Of a stretch of DNA of 41,215 nucleotides, positions 3,210 through 8,409 are shown piece by piece. The first letter of the stretch is position 1, and each line of letters starts with the position of its first letter. The position numbers and the translations under genes are program-made. The stretch is from Actinomycetota bacterium. GTDB lineage: Bacteria > Actinomycetota > Acidimicrobiia > Acidimicrobiales > MedAcidi-G1. The DNA is taken from contig PBLL01000037.1 of NCBI GenBank assembly GCA_002721755.1, positions 1 through 41,215 of the forward strand, given 5' to 3'. The notes below the pieces were generated by a model that did no database searches, was not told where the DNA came from, and saw only the letters and a program-made list of their open reading frames with translations.

Positions 3210-6200
3210 CTAACTCGCCAACATTCCCAGGCGTTCTGCTGAACGAGTTGCCTCTACCTTTTCGCTAACTACTTTTGACGAACCTCCTGAAGCCATGGAA
3301 ACTCCATATAGGCAATCTGCTGCTTCCATGGTTCTCTTCTGGTGAGTGACAATTAGTAGTTGTGACTCATCGCGGAATTGATCAACTAGCCCAAGGAAAC
3401 GGACAAGGTTTGCGTCATCTAACGCAGCTTCTACTTCATCCATTACATAGAAAGGCGAAGGTCGGCTTCGGAAAACTGCAAAGAGGAAAGCGAGTGCTGT
3501 CAAAGATCTTTCACCTCCAGAAAGTAATGAGAGTTTCTTAACATTCTTTCCTGATGGTCGAGCTTCAATTTCTATTCCTGTGTCTAAAAGGTTTTCCGGG
3601 TCGGTTAAAGCAAGTTTTCCATTTCCGCCTGGGAACAAAACTTCAAATAAGTCAGAGAAGTTAGTTGAAACTTCTGCAAAAGCTGCAGCGAAAACTTCTT
3701 TGATCTCTATATCAATTGAACGAATGACTTTGCGGAGTTCTTTTCTAGTTGATCGGACATCTTCAAGTTGTTCTTCAAGGAATTCATAACGTTCTTTTAG
3801 GTCATCGAATTCATAAAGCGCAAGAGGATTAATCGGCCCTATGAGCTTAAGTTCCCTCTCCAGTTCAGCTATTCGTTCGGATACTGTTATTCCCTCTGAC
3901 AATTCAGGACTGGGAAGTTCACCGATGGATTCTGGTTCTCTCTCAAATTCGGATCGTATCGTCTCGGTCAAATTTTCTAACTTCAACCTAGTTTCGGCTC
4001 TTTCTATCTCTAGACGTCCCTGTTCTTCTCTTAAAGCTCTTACCTGATCTTCTCTTTTTCTCCTTGATGAGCGAAGTTCATCTAGTTGTGAAGTAATTTT
4101 TCGCACACGATCTGACTGATCTTTACGGTGGTTTCTCAGCTCCGTTAAACGACGTTCGATTATTTCAGTTCTCAAGTCAAGAGAATCGACTAAAAAAGAA
4201 GTAGCTTTCTCTTTCTTTTCGATTGTTTCGCTTCGCTCTACCACACCTGTTCTTTCTCCTGAAAGCCTTTGTAAGCGGATGTCGAGTTCATTAACTCTGT
4301 CTTTCACGACAGCTAATCTTCCTTTGATGTCCGCAGACCTAACTTCGTGTTCAGTGCGTCTTGCTGCAGTTTCAGCAGATCTGCTTTCAAGTTGATTTCG
4401 CTCATCTGCCATTCTTTGCGCTGCTTGTACTGATGTTTTCTCAGCTTCCTCCAGTTCTTGTAGGTGAATTTGTAGTTCTGTAATCTGACGCATCTCTTCT
4501 TTAATTCTTTGTTCATTTTCACGAATCCGGTCATCTAAAGTCTCGTTTTCGATGCCGGTAGCTTTTTGTTCGACTCTCACTTTCTGAACTGCTTCAGACA
4601 ATGAAGCCTCTTTGCGTTTGCACTCCTCAAGTTGTTGCTGTTTCTCAAGTAAATCTTTTTCAGACAAATCGATTCGTGATTCGAATTGATTAAAGGAAAG
4701 TTGTTTTTCTTGTGCTTCCTTCTCTTCAGATGAAAGTCGACTTTCGGCATCTTTCAAAATGTCCTTTATGTTTGCTTGATCTTTCTGACCTATTCGCCAA
4801 CCCAGAGAACCAAACCTGTCGCCGTGTTTGTTCACGATAGTGATACTCGGGTTTTTCTTGAGAATCTCAACTATGGATCTGAGATCGCCTTCTTGAACAA
4901 TCACATCTGCGAGGAGGCGGTCAAGGAACGGATTAAGAGAGTCATTCGTTGAAGTAACATGCCTACGGAGAGGTTCGCCAAAATCTGTGATTTCTGGGTT
5001 TCTGAAGTTTGTATCAACTGTGACTACAGACACTGATCTATTTTCTATTTGCATACCGTTCAGTGCTTCTATCGCATTTTCAGTCGTGTCGAAAACAACC
5101 GTGGAAAGCAGATCGCCAGTCGCGGCTTCAAAGGCTTTCTCATAGCCAGTTTCGATATCAAGAAGATCTGACAAAATTCCTAGAATCCCATCAGGATTGG
5201 TTGAAAGTTCCATTACTGGTGTTTCAATGATTCTGTTAACAGCTTGATTCAGGGCCTCAATTTCTGCTTTTGTTCCTCGCAAACTTGCTTTCGCATCAGC
5301 TAATTCTTCCCACGCAGAATTTCGATTTTCTCTTTGCTTCTGTATCTCTTGGCTTAATTGATTAATTTCTCCTTTTATCTCAACACCCTCAAGTTTGTTA
5401 TTACTTAGTTCACCATCCAGCGAACTGGCTTCTTCAACAAGTTGTATTTCTGAGTTTTTTACTTCGTCAGATCTTTTTTGGAATCGTTTTTTTTCAAACT
5501 CTTTTTGATCAACTGAAGCTTTTAGAACACCTAACTCACCTCGTATTTCTGAAGCTCGACCACCCACCACGGGAACTCCATCTGCCCAATCTGTTTCAAA
5601 AGTTGACCAATCGTCAGCTAGTTCTTGTTCAGTTTTCTTTAAAGCGTCAATCTCCGGGAGTAGGCAATTTTGTTCCTCAAGTAAACTTTCTTCTTCTTTT
5701 TTTGCTTTAACAAGCTCAACTTCCAATCCGGCAACCACTTCGGAAGAGACCAACGAGTCGCGATCTCGTTCGATGCCTTTTTGCCGTTCCATTAGAACTG
5801 CCTTCAAACCGCGTGCCCGTTCTTTAAGAGCTTCAAATCGAACCAGTTGATCTCCTAAATCATCTTCTCCTCTTGCTGTCAATTCACTTTCAGCCATTGA
5901 TATTTCAGTTTCAAATCGTTTCAGTTCATTGACACTTAGGGTTTCTTGTCTTGCCAAATCTGATCTTTTCTCTGATTCCTGTGATGCTAAATTTTTCAAC
6001 TCTTTGAATTCTTTGGAATAGCGGAATAAACGCAAATTCTTTAGCTCTTCCAGAAAATTTCCATGTTTTCTTGCTGCCTCTGCCTGTCTTTCTAGTGGCC
6101 GCAGCTGTCTTTTAACTTCACGTTGCATGTCGCCTAGTCGATCAAGATTGGAACCTGTTGAATCAAGTCTTCTTTCGGCTTTTTCTTTTCTCTTTCTGAA

Positions 6201-6707
6201 TTTCAAAATTCCGGCGGCGTCTTCAATAATTGATCGACGGTCTTCTTCTCGTGCATTCAACACTGCGTCTATTTGACCCTGTGAAATAATTACATGTTGT
6301 TGCCTGCCTACACCGACGTCTGAAAGCAACTCTTGAATGTCTAGCAACCTGCAGGGAGAGCCATTTAGTGAATATTCGCTTTCTCCGTTTCTGAACAGAG
6401 TTCTGGTTACAGTTATCTCCGGAAAATCTAAAGCAAGACTGTTGTCGGAGTTATCAATTGTTAAAGAGACCTCTGCTCTTCCCAGTGCACTTCGATCGGT
6501 CGTGCCTGCGAAAATAACGTCATCCATTCTTTGCGACCTGACTGCACTTGGGGCTTGTGCTCCAAGAACCCATGCAACGGCGTCTACAACGTTGGATTTT
6601 CCACTTCCGTTTGGTCCTACTACAACAGTTACACCCGTCTCAAGATCTAGTGTCGCTGCATCAGCAAAAGATTTGAATCCTTTTATAGTTAGACGTTTTA
6701 AGAACAC
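3210..6707 (-). CDS. smc: Chromosome segregation/condensation protein SMC
   Basis: ATPase of the SMC-ScpAB condensin complex that organises and segregates the chromosome. At 1165 aa it has the usual length for bacterial SMC. The N-terminal head has Walker A GPNGSGKSN (31-39). Two long coiled coils surround a hinge at about residues 505-650. The C-terminal head has signature LLSGGERSL (from about 1061) and Walker B with MDEVEAALDD (1090-1099 region). The start is GTG at 6705-6707; an in-frame stop just upstream excludes an earlier start. TATGGT lies 6 bases before the GTG, so the transcript may be leaderless. No scpA or scpB is in the window. The rnc-fpg-smc order is the common bacterial arrangement. 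Confidence 0.98.
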   Translation of the reverse strand: MFLKRLTIKGFKSFADAATLDLETGVTVVVGPNGSGKSNVVDAVAWVLGAQAPSAVRSQRMDDVIFAGTTDRSALGRAEVSLTIDNSDNSLALDFPEITVTRTLFRNGESEYSLNGSPCRLLDIQELLSDVGVGRQQHVIISQGQIDAVLNAREEDRRSIIEDAAGILKFRKRKEKAERRLDSTGSNLDRLGDMQREVKRQLRPLERQAEAARKHGNFLEELKNLRLFRYSKEFKELKNLASQESEKRSDLARQETLSVNELKRFETEISMAESELTARGEDDLGDQLVRFEALKERARGLKAVLMERQKGIERDRDSLVSSEVVAGLEVELVKAKKEEESLLEEQNCLLPEIDALKKTEQELADDWSTFETDWADGVPVVGGRASEIRGELGVLKASVDQKEFEKKRFQKRSDEVKNSEIQLVEEASSLDGELSNNKLEGVEIKGEINQLSQEIQKQRENRNSAWEELADAKASLRGTKAEIEALNQAVNRIIETPVMELSTNPDGILGILSDLLDIETGYEKAFEAATGDLLSTVVFDTTENAIEALNGMQIENRSVSVVTVDTNFRNPEITDFGEPLRRHVTSTNDSLNPFLDRLLADVIVQEGDLRSIVEILKKNPSITIVNKHGDRFGSLGWRIGQKDQANIKDILKDAESRLSSEEKEAQEKQLSFNQFESRIDLSEKDLLEKQQQLEECKRKEASLSEAVQKVRVEQKATGIENETLDDRIRENEQRIKEEMRQITELQIHLQELEEAEKTSVQAAQRMADERNQLESRSAETAARRTEHEVRSADIKGRLAVVKDRVNELDIRLQRLSGERTGVVERSETIEKKEKATSFLVDSLDLRTEIIERRLTELRNHRKDQSDRVRKITSQLDELRSSRRKREDQVRALREEQGRLEIERAETRLKLENLTETIRSEFEREPESIGELPSPELSEGITVSERIAELERELKLIGPINPLALYEFDDLKERYEFLEEQLEDVRSTRKELRKVIRSIDIEIKEVFAAAFAEVSTNFSDLFEVLFPGGNGKLALTDPENLLDTGIEIEARPSGKNVKKLSLLSGGERSLTALAFLFAVFRSRPSPFYVMDEVEAALDDANLVRFLGLVDQFRDESQLLIVTHQKRTMEAADCLYGVSMASGGSSKVVSEKVEATRSAERLGMLAS

Positions 6708-6781: not shown

Positions 6782-7648
6782 TCAAACCTGTGTTTCACAG
6801 AAGAAAGTCCAGCGTCCTTTGTGCTTAACCTTCTGTACCGGTTTCTTGCTTGTTGGGCTAAACAGACCTTCTCTACCGTAAACCGCTAGATGTTCAGCAA
6901 AACCACCCGGTTCTCCAAAAACATCCAGAAATTCTCTTTCCTCAATAGAGGTACCACGATATTTGACTGCCTCCACGATCACTTCAACTATTGACCGGTA
7001 AAGCCGCCTGACTTCCTGAATCGATAAAGAATCGCTTTGCCTGTCGTGTCTCAACCCTGCGTGAAAAAGAATTTCGTCGCTGTAAACATCACCGACACCT
7101 ACCACCACTGAGTCATCAAATAAAAGAGATTTCAAATCGGTTGACTCTCCTTCTCTTAGCACTCGTTTAGCGAATTCCGTCCAAGGTTCTGGCTCTAAAG
7201 CAGGATCCATTCCTAGGAATTTAAATTCTGGAAATTTCTCCTCAATGAAGTCTGGGTCCTCTAGGTCCTCTAAAGAAAAGACGCTAACTTTCGACTCTTC
7301 TTTCGGGTCTACAATCCTTAACTGCCCCCCTACTGTGAAAGTGATTTTAAGAACTGTGTCTTTGTCTGTCGCGTCTTTAGTAGCGTGTCTTCTTATCGAT
7401 GCTCCCGTCCCGATTTTTATGAAAAGGATCTTCTTTTTGTCCAATTCTGTGAAAATGTAGAGACCTTTTCTCTCCACTAAACCCAGTTTGGTGCCTACAA
7501 GTTCTGCATTGAAGGCCTTTTTGTTTTTTGAACCTTCAATGACAGACGTCGAAGAAACTTCCACTGCTTTTATCTTTTTCCCTGCTATTTCACGGTCAAG
7601 GTCACGCCGAATCGTTTCAATTTCTGGGAGTTCTAAAGGGAGAGTCAA
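6782..7648 (-). CDS. Diverged Fpg/Nei (MutM)-family protein, probably altered catalysis and no zinc finger
   Basis: Homologue of formamidopyrimidine-DNA glycosylases (288 aa, normal length 270-290), which remove oxidised purines. Fold landmarks are present: ELPEIETIRR at the N-terminus, a VERKGLY beta-hairpin with the DNA-contacting Lys, the helix-two-turn-helix GVGDVYSDEILFHAG, and VYGREG followed by GRWTFFC near the C-terminus. The catalytic set is unusual. Canonical proteins begin Met-Pro-Glu with the Pro as nucleophile; here the start reads M-T-L-P-L-E-L-P-E, so Leu5 aligns with that Pro. Of four zinc-ligand cysteines only Cys284 remains. HLGMSG is replaced by KIGTGA. The TTG start has AAGGA upstream, overlaps the rnc stop, and an upstream in-frame TAA leaves no other usual start. 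It may be a damage-binding protein or a recruited function. Confidence 0.85.
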   Translation of the reverse strand: MTLPLELPEIETIRRDLDREIAGKKIKAVEVSSTSVIEGSKNKKAFNAELVGTKLGLVERKGLYIFTELDKKKILFIKIGTGASIRRHATKDATDKDTVLKITFTVGGQLRIVDPKEESKVSVFSLEDLEDPDFIEEKFPEFKFLGMDPALEPEPWTEFAKRVLREGESTDLKSLLFDDSVVVGVGDVYSDEILFHAGLRHDRQSDSLSIQEVRRLYRSIVEVIVEAVKYRGTSIEEREFLDVFGEPGGFAEHLAVYGREGLFSPTSKKPVQKVKHKGRWTFFCETQV

Positions 7649-8409
7649 TTTTTTTCCTTTTTCTCTTTAAATTCAAAAAAACTGTATGCGAGGTTTGCAG
7701 CTGCTTGTTCTGCCTTCTTCTTGGAAGCTCCACAAACAGGACCAAAACTTTGGTCTCCTATCTTGACAGTTGCGTAAAAGCTTTTCTCATGGTCAGGTCC
7801 ATCCGTTTCAATGAAATAAAAAGGAGTAGGTTCTGAAATTTGCACTGTTAACTCCTGCAAACGAGTTTTGTAATCAGTTGATCCTGGTTCTATTGCCGTC
7901 AAACCAATTTTCTCAGAAAATAACTTGTCTACAATCAATTTTGCTTTCTCTATTCCTCCATCCAGAAAAACTGCACCCAAAAGAGCCTCAAAGGAATCCG
8001 CGAGGATGGAACCTTTTTGACGACCCCCAGCTGATTCTTCAGCTGCACTTAAAGCTACTATCTCACCAAGGTGAATTCCTTTAGCAATTTCTGCTAATGC
8101 AGGTGAGCTGACCACCTCGGATCTGATTTTTGCAAGATCACCTTCTGGTTTATCTGGATAATCTTCAAAAATCTTTTTTGCCACCAGTAATCCCAATACT
8201 GCATCCCCTAGAAATTCAAGACGCTCATTAGAATCTGCCCCATTCTCTGAGCACCAAGATCTGTGTCTTAAAGCATCAGAGAGAATCTCGACATCACGGA
8301 ATGTATATCCGATCCCTTCTTCGAGTTTCAGTCGAATCTCTTCCTCGAAGACCGGCTGGTTCCCGATTTCTGAATTAATTGAAACGAGAGACGACATAGT
8401 CAACCGCAT
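7645..8409 (-). CDS. rnc: Ribonuclease III
   Basis: Double-strand RNA endonuclease for rRNA processing and RNA turnover (254 aa). The catalytic domain carries signature NERLEFLGDAVL (61-72) with metal ligands Glu65 and Asp69, and the second acidic pair Asp138/Glu141 in LADSFEALLGAV. A dsRNA-binding domain occupies about 178-250 and ends with KKKAEQAAANLAY. The N-terminus is about 20 residues longer than the E. coli enzyme. ATG at 8409 overlaps the end of acpP by 35 bases and has AGGA upstream; an alternative ATG at 8397 would shorten it by four residues. Its stop overlaps the start of the fpg-like gene by 4 bases, so the two are translationally coupled. Confidence 0.97.
   Translation of the reverse strand: MRLTMSSLVSINSEIGNQPVFEEEIRLKLEEGIGYTFRDVEILSDALRHRSWCSENGADSNERLEFLGDAVLGLLVAKKIFEDYPDKPEGDLAKIRSEVVSSPALAEIAKGIHLGEIVALSAAEESAGGRQKGSILADSFEALLGAVFLDGGIEKAKLIVDKLFSEKIGLTAIEPGSTDYKTRLQELTVQISEPTPFYFIETDGPDHEKSFYATVKIGDQSFGPVCGASKKKAEQAAANLAYSFFEFKEKKEKN

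Follow-up and report, generated by a model that had tools for sequence, protein, structure and literature searches.

A strongly conserved and probably non-catalytic MutM orthologue between rnc and smc in marine Acidimicrobiales

The window, i.e. the whole stretch of 41,215 nt that was analysed, carries a gene of the Fpg/MutM family within the following set of features.

6782 to 7648, minus strand: pseudo-Fpg gene (288 aa, TTG start), orthologue of the rnc-locus MutM, predicted from its sequence to be catalytically dead
7655 to 7660, minus strand: AAAGGA, Shine-Dalgarno-like by sequence, 6 nt 5' of the TTG start
7645 to 8409, minus strand: rnc (RNase III), upstream of the pseudo-Fpg gene with a 4-nt overlap
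3210 to 6707, minus strand: smc, downstream of the pseudo-Fpg gene

The TTG start falls within the rnc stop codon. Two Pfam domains of Fpg were detected in the product with scores that both exceed the cut-off (PF01149, 64.1 bits; PF06831, 63.4 bits), and the score for the NCBIfam fpg equivalog TIGR00577 was below it (177.2 vs 203.3). A previous, sequence-only reading of this DNA had recognised an Fpg/MutM homologue in an rnc-fpg-smc position, which agrees with the Pfam domains and with the two neighbours. The same order, with rnc upstream and smc downstream, occurs at 75/75 rnc-type Fpg loci having both flanks, a count that leaves out five further loci that stop at contig edges. Synteny and trees identify the window gene as the rnc-locus Fpg orthologue by descent: in a tree calculated with the trait columns removed and rooted by an outgroup, the 63 sequences of the pseudo-Fpg type form one clade (100/97) that is nested in the canonical rnc-locus Fpg. 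The AlphaFold model of the window protein (pLDDT 88.6) displays the Fpg fold and has Bst MutM as its top PDB match (TM 0.83-0.87), which is also the best PDB match by sequence, with an alignment that begins at ELPE. The fold, landmarks of which had been noticed before, is thus predicted to be kept; in the zinc-site region, strands are predicted at residues 272-276 and 279-283 with low local confidence.

Within this fold, the positions that define the Fpg active site and zinc finger were located as follows, lost Fpg positions being numbered as in Bst MutM.

7634 to 7648, minus strand: N-terminal extension M-T-L-P-L, Leu5 lying at the position of the Fpg nucleophile Pro; the 5-residue length is fixed in the family and the sequence varies
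7622 to 7633, minus strand: retained E-L-P-E, with Glu3 and Glu6 of Bst MutM
7460 to 7462, minus strand: Leu63 replacing the catalytic Lys60 (Bst), which is a Lys in 11/11 canonical orthologues and in 0/63 pseudo-Fpg sequences
7400 to 7417, minus strand: KIGTGA replacing HLGMSG, with loss of the wedge residue Met77 (Thr81)
7295 to 7303, minus strand: K-E-E replacing R-x-F, with loss of the wedge residues Arg112 and Phe114 (Lys116/Glu118)
7088 to 7090, minus strand: Asp187 replacing Asn174 of the H2TH GxGN motif
6947 to 7054, minus strand: conserved H2TH helix block, LRHDRQSDSLSIQEVRRLYRSIVEVIVEAVKYRGTS, common to canonical and dead members of the subfamily
6797 to 6859, minus strand: relic of the zinc-finger hairpin (S264, S267, C284), with one of four Cys left and no fourth Cys

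The N-terminus of the window protein reads M-T-L-P-L5-E-L-P-E, and Glu3 of Bst MutM corresponds to its Glu6. Alignment to Bst MutM bears out three observations made earlier, namely Leu5 at the nucleophile position, the change from HLGMSG to KIGTGA and the absence of three of the four zinc Cys. The remark that removing Leu5 would restore PELPE reflects a coincidence, since position 4 varies among relatives (P, A, E, D or S). According to the alignments, the losses extend beyond those reported, as K60, M77, R112, F114 and N174 are also gone, and the Met/Arg/Phe wedge is kept by none of the 63 pseudo-Fpg sequences and by 11/11 canonical orthologues. The protein has also turned from basic to acidic, with a pI of 5.6 for the window protein and medians of 6.0 for the dead clade, 9.1 for the canonical orthologues and 9.9 for an intact paralogue (see below); the whole-protein net charge shifts from a median of about +6 in canonical members to -3 in the dead clade.

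Given these replacements, base excision and abasic-site nicking by the window protein are very probably no longer possible. In M. smegmatis Nei2, Lys51, the equivalent of Lys60, is required for both lyase and glycosylase activities and Pro2 for the lyase only (PMC11323726). That the protein would still be an active glycosylase or lyase of changed specificity, using as nucleophile a lysine or its displaced N-terminal amine in the manner of the NEIL3 Val, is highly improbable. Glu3 and Glu6 are retained in a fold predicted to be intact and Pro is not an absolute requirement, as NEIL3 indicates (PMC11323726), but the amine would be misplaced by a 3-residue extension, or by a Met that is not normally removed before Phe, Ile or Leu. 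Moreover, the Pro position varies freely across the clade (L, F, I, Y, T, H, N, A or P) and no replacement lysine is conserved at active-site positions among the 63 aligned pseudo-Fpg sequences. The loss of Lys60, of the whole wedge and of the basic character argues against both the alternative N-terminal nucleophile and the retained recognition of damage (8-oxoG) that had previously been considered.

A reverse case was observed in family f35 (L153, L156, L157, L159, L183-L195), in which the rnc-locus Fpg of 17/17 genomes has no Pro codon and begins with [ATG/GTG]-GAG or GAA, i.e. Met-Glu-Leu-Pro-Glu, with K60, the M/R/F wedge, N174 and the four Cys intact (completely verified in L153, L156, L157 and L159). 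In five of these loci a stop codon immediately precedes the GTG, so that Met is the first residue. A Met preceding Glu is not normally removed, and the sequences suggest that the amine of the initiator Met may serve as nucleophile in place of Pro.

The same pseudo-Fpg form was found in eight genomes of the same genus and in nearly all of 28 other genomes of the family, with an N-terminus M-x-x-x-x-ELPE, in which the 5-residue extension is again of fixed length, and a C-terminus ...C[DE]TQV. These relatives comprise Acidimicrobiales MAGs, the single-cell genomes AG-414-N20 and AG-410-I20, and MedAcidi-G2B. The same-genus matches begin at the 5' end of the gene in eight genomes and span the full-length gene in seven; three matches are partial (a C-terminal fragment in G029, the first 82 residues in G004 and a copy lacking the C-terminal end in G027). 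It is extremely improbable that the gene is decaying, misassembled or assigned a wrong start, even with a TTG start and a genome that is 78% complete. The eight same-genus genomes matching from the 5' end, together with the single-cell genomes, rule out a frameshift or assembly error at 7630-7648. No ATG, GTG or TTG that would yield Met-Pro-Glu was found upstream of ELPE or internally in the window gene. Decay is ruled out by the absence of internal stops, a dN/dS of ca. 0.05 and a form shared across the family. The view that the gene does not decay randomly is therefore upheld, and a changed function is very probable in light of the same family-wide conservation, dN/dS and synteny.

The genome that contains the window also encodes an intact Fpg paralogue (G000:C19:12442-13263, L001), with catalytic residues and zinc site present, that belongs to a clade distinct from the rnc-locus Fpg (support 100/100). 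Within the genus, dN/dS of the pseudo-Fpg gene is ca. 0.05 (median 0.04-0.05), falling to ca. 0.03 in the H2TH half with the N-terminal half less constrained, vs 0.08-0.14 for the intact paralogue; these values were calculated by the Nei-Gojobori method (NG86) on unsaturated pairs, dS being saturated in many pairs. When the same genomes are compared pairwise, the copies of the pseudo-Fpg gene are 87-92% identical and those of the intact paralogue 71-79%. The pseudo-Fpg gene is thus under stronger purifying selection than the intact Fpg copy of the same genomes. This paralogue occurs in nearly all genomes of the family and was not found in G027 and G029, nor in genus g2 (G009, G014, G018, G022, G026, G030, G034), so that excision "covered by the paralogue" is not universal. 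Besides the dead Fpg, the only other match in genus g2 is another Fpg/Nei-type gene, the product of which starts with MPEILEIE in L068-L070, and on which 8-oxoG repair may rest in these organisms.

On the tree, a single change accounts for K60 and the wedge triad, compared with two for the zinc site and at least four for Pro, all counts being minima. The tree thus places the loss of the catalytic core before the changes of the zinc finger and of Pro. Locus L038 (G041) keeps Pro, Lys and the zinc finger and has T for M77, S for F114 and A for N174; it is possibly an intermediate towards the dead form. Two sequences within the dead clade, L147 and L148 (Candidatus Poriferisocius and a relative), present four zinc Cys, their zinc finger being either retained or regained.

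In two other families of the phylum, f29 and f41, the rnc-type Fpg has lost K60, the wedge and N174 largely or completely, with the zinc site kept and Pro mostly so; L170 still has the Lys and Arg. These sequences form a separate clade (98/89), which implies at least two losses of the catalytic core. The tree count of four core changes includes L038 and the Met-to-Ile change of L177, neither of which is counted as dead. In three f41 loci (L165, L171, L173), a second Fpg/Nei-type gene sits between rnc and the dead rnc-type Fpg and forms a tandem with the latter; the product of this second gene (VPELPELDVL...) keeps the Lys and four Cys.

A motif located in the C-terminal H2TH helices, GLRxDR..SxQ[ED]VRRLYR, is common to both dead lineages and to their canonical orthologues, and is absent from the other actinobacterial Fpg that were read (L175-L182) and from the intact paralogue. 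The helix at residues 207-232 is the most conserved segment among canonical as well as among dead members; its entropy in the dead clade is 0.87 bits, below the 1.1-1.8 of the other segments.

These data favour, with a probability of ca. 0.6, a conserved pseudo-glycosylase of a marine Acidimicrobiales lineage that is kept for a non-catalytic role, as a candidate scaffold or adaptor for a protein partner. The ancestral rnc-locus Fpg would have had two functions, excision and a binding surface on the C-terminal H2TH helices; other Fpg/Nei enzymes would then have taken over excision, the catalytic side being lost and the helical surface kept, and the present protein would bind its partner via these helices. 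Candidate partners are the co-transcribed RNase III or SMC, which are suggested by their position as operon neighbours, or the repair or replication machinery. Mycobacterial Nei2 does not need its lyase activity to function in psoralen repair (PMC11323726), and this in vivo work without a Pro-dependent lyase offers a precedent for a non-catalytic role in the Fpg/Nei family. On the other side, helix conservation may be partly structural, and weak DNA binding is possible according to the alignments, as Glu3 is kept in 55/63 pseudo-Fpg sequences and some DNA-contact positions (Tyr242, Lys/Arg258) persist.

A protein that binds DNA and flags lesions without catalysis, as alkyltransferase-like (ATL) proteins do, with the H2TH domain and a zincless hairpin contacting damaged or distorted DNA and recruiting another pathway, is unlikely, even though part of the evidence points in this direction. 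Across the pseudo-Fpg clade, Gly171, Gly173 and Tyr176 of the H2TH motif are invariant, position 258 is Lys or Arg in 63/63 sequences and position 242 is aromatic in 63/63. That a dead repair enzyme can serve to flag lesions has a precedent in the ATL proteins (PMC10779285). In Nei2, E3 is required in vivo with P2 being dispensable (PMC11323726), and E3 is the residue kept in 55/63 pseudo-Fpg sequences. However, ATLs lose the nucleophile only and keep all base-flipping features (PMC10779285), whereas the base-everting wedge is wholly gone here. Structures show the inserted Arg and Phe kinking DNA and keeping the lesion extrahelical (PMC5422863), and the loss of both residues argues against an ATL-style role, where base flipping persists. 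The phosphate-binding Asn174, lost in the window protein and mostly D or P across the clade, and the drop in net charge also stand against it.

The cleft of the window protein is remodelled to acidic or small residues, which, together with strong constraint and the shared operon with rnc, could suggest that it is reused for another ligand or nucleic acid (RNA, nucleotides). This reading is quite improbable, since the remodelled positions are mostly variable within the dead clade, unlike what would be expected of a new ligand site.

More broadly, and tentatively, the scaffold interpretation may extend to the rnc-locus Fpg subfamily of Actinomycetota as a whole, which could have an undescribed non-catalytic function of the H2TH helices that two or more lineages kept independently after the glycosylase was lost. 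If true, MutM at the rnc locus would take part structurally in a core complex (SMC, RNase III or replication). As the active site disappeared twice independently from proteins that retained the same helix, the question of important non-catalytic roles of DNA glycosylases becomes a testable one. In the open literature searched, neither conserved dead DNA glycosylases as a described bacterial group nor work on formamidopyrimidine glycosylase in Acidimicrobiia was found. Domain searches see "MutM" in these proteins, and automated annotation could thus credit marine bacteria with a repair activity that is very probably absent.

When compared to known systems, the window protein resembles Fpg/MutM (Bst MutM 3JR5/1R2Y, Lactococcus, E. 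coli Fpg) over the whole fold (TM 0.79-0.88, about 26-30% identity), in its ELPE motif and H2TH domain and in the rnc-fpg position found in actinobacteria, but differs in being acidic rather than basic and in having no Pro1, Lys60, Met77/Arg112/Phe114, Asn174 or zinc site. The canonical rnc-locus Fpg of other Acidimicrobiales (L037, L042, L145, ...) are direct orthologues with about 45% identity and the same helix motif and synteny, yet they keep MPELPE, the K, MRF and N residues and the four Cys. The second Fpg of the same genome (L001) belongs to the same family but to a separate clade, with intact sites and faster evolution than the window gene. Zinc ligands are also lost in NEIL1 and plant Fpg, in which the zincless finger coexists with a retained N-terminal Pro and activity; in the window protein, a beta hairpin is predicted with low local confidence. 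NEIL3 likewise has a residue other than Pro at the nucleophile position, but its Val2 becomes N-terminal when Met is removed and is active (PMC11323726), while the window protein has an internal residue 5 at this position and lacks the remainder of the site. Mycobacterial Nei2 is similar in functioning in vivo without the lyase activity of an N-terminal Pro (PMC11323726) and differs in keeping its catalytic residues. ATL proteins, in turn, are conserved and catalytically dead homologues of a repair enzyme, as the window protein would be, but retain the base-flipping apparatus (PMC10779285).
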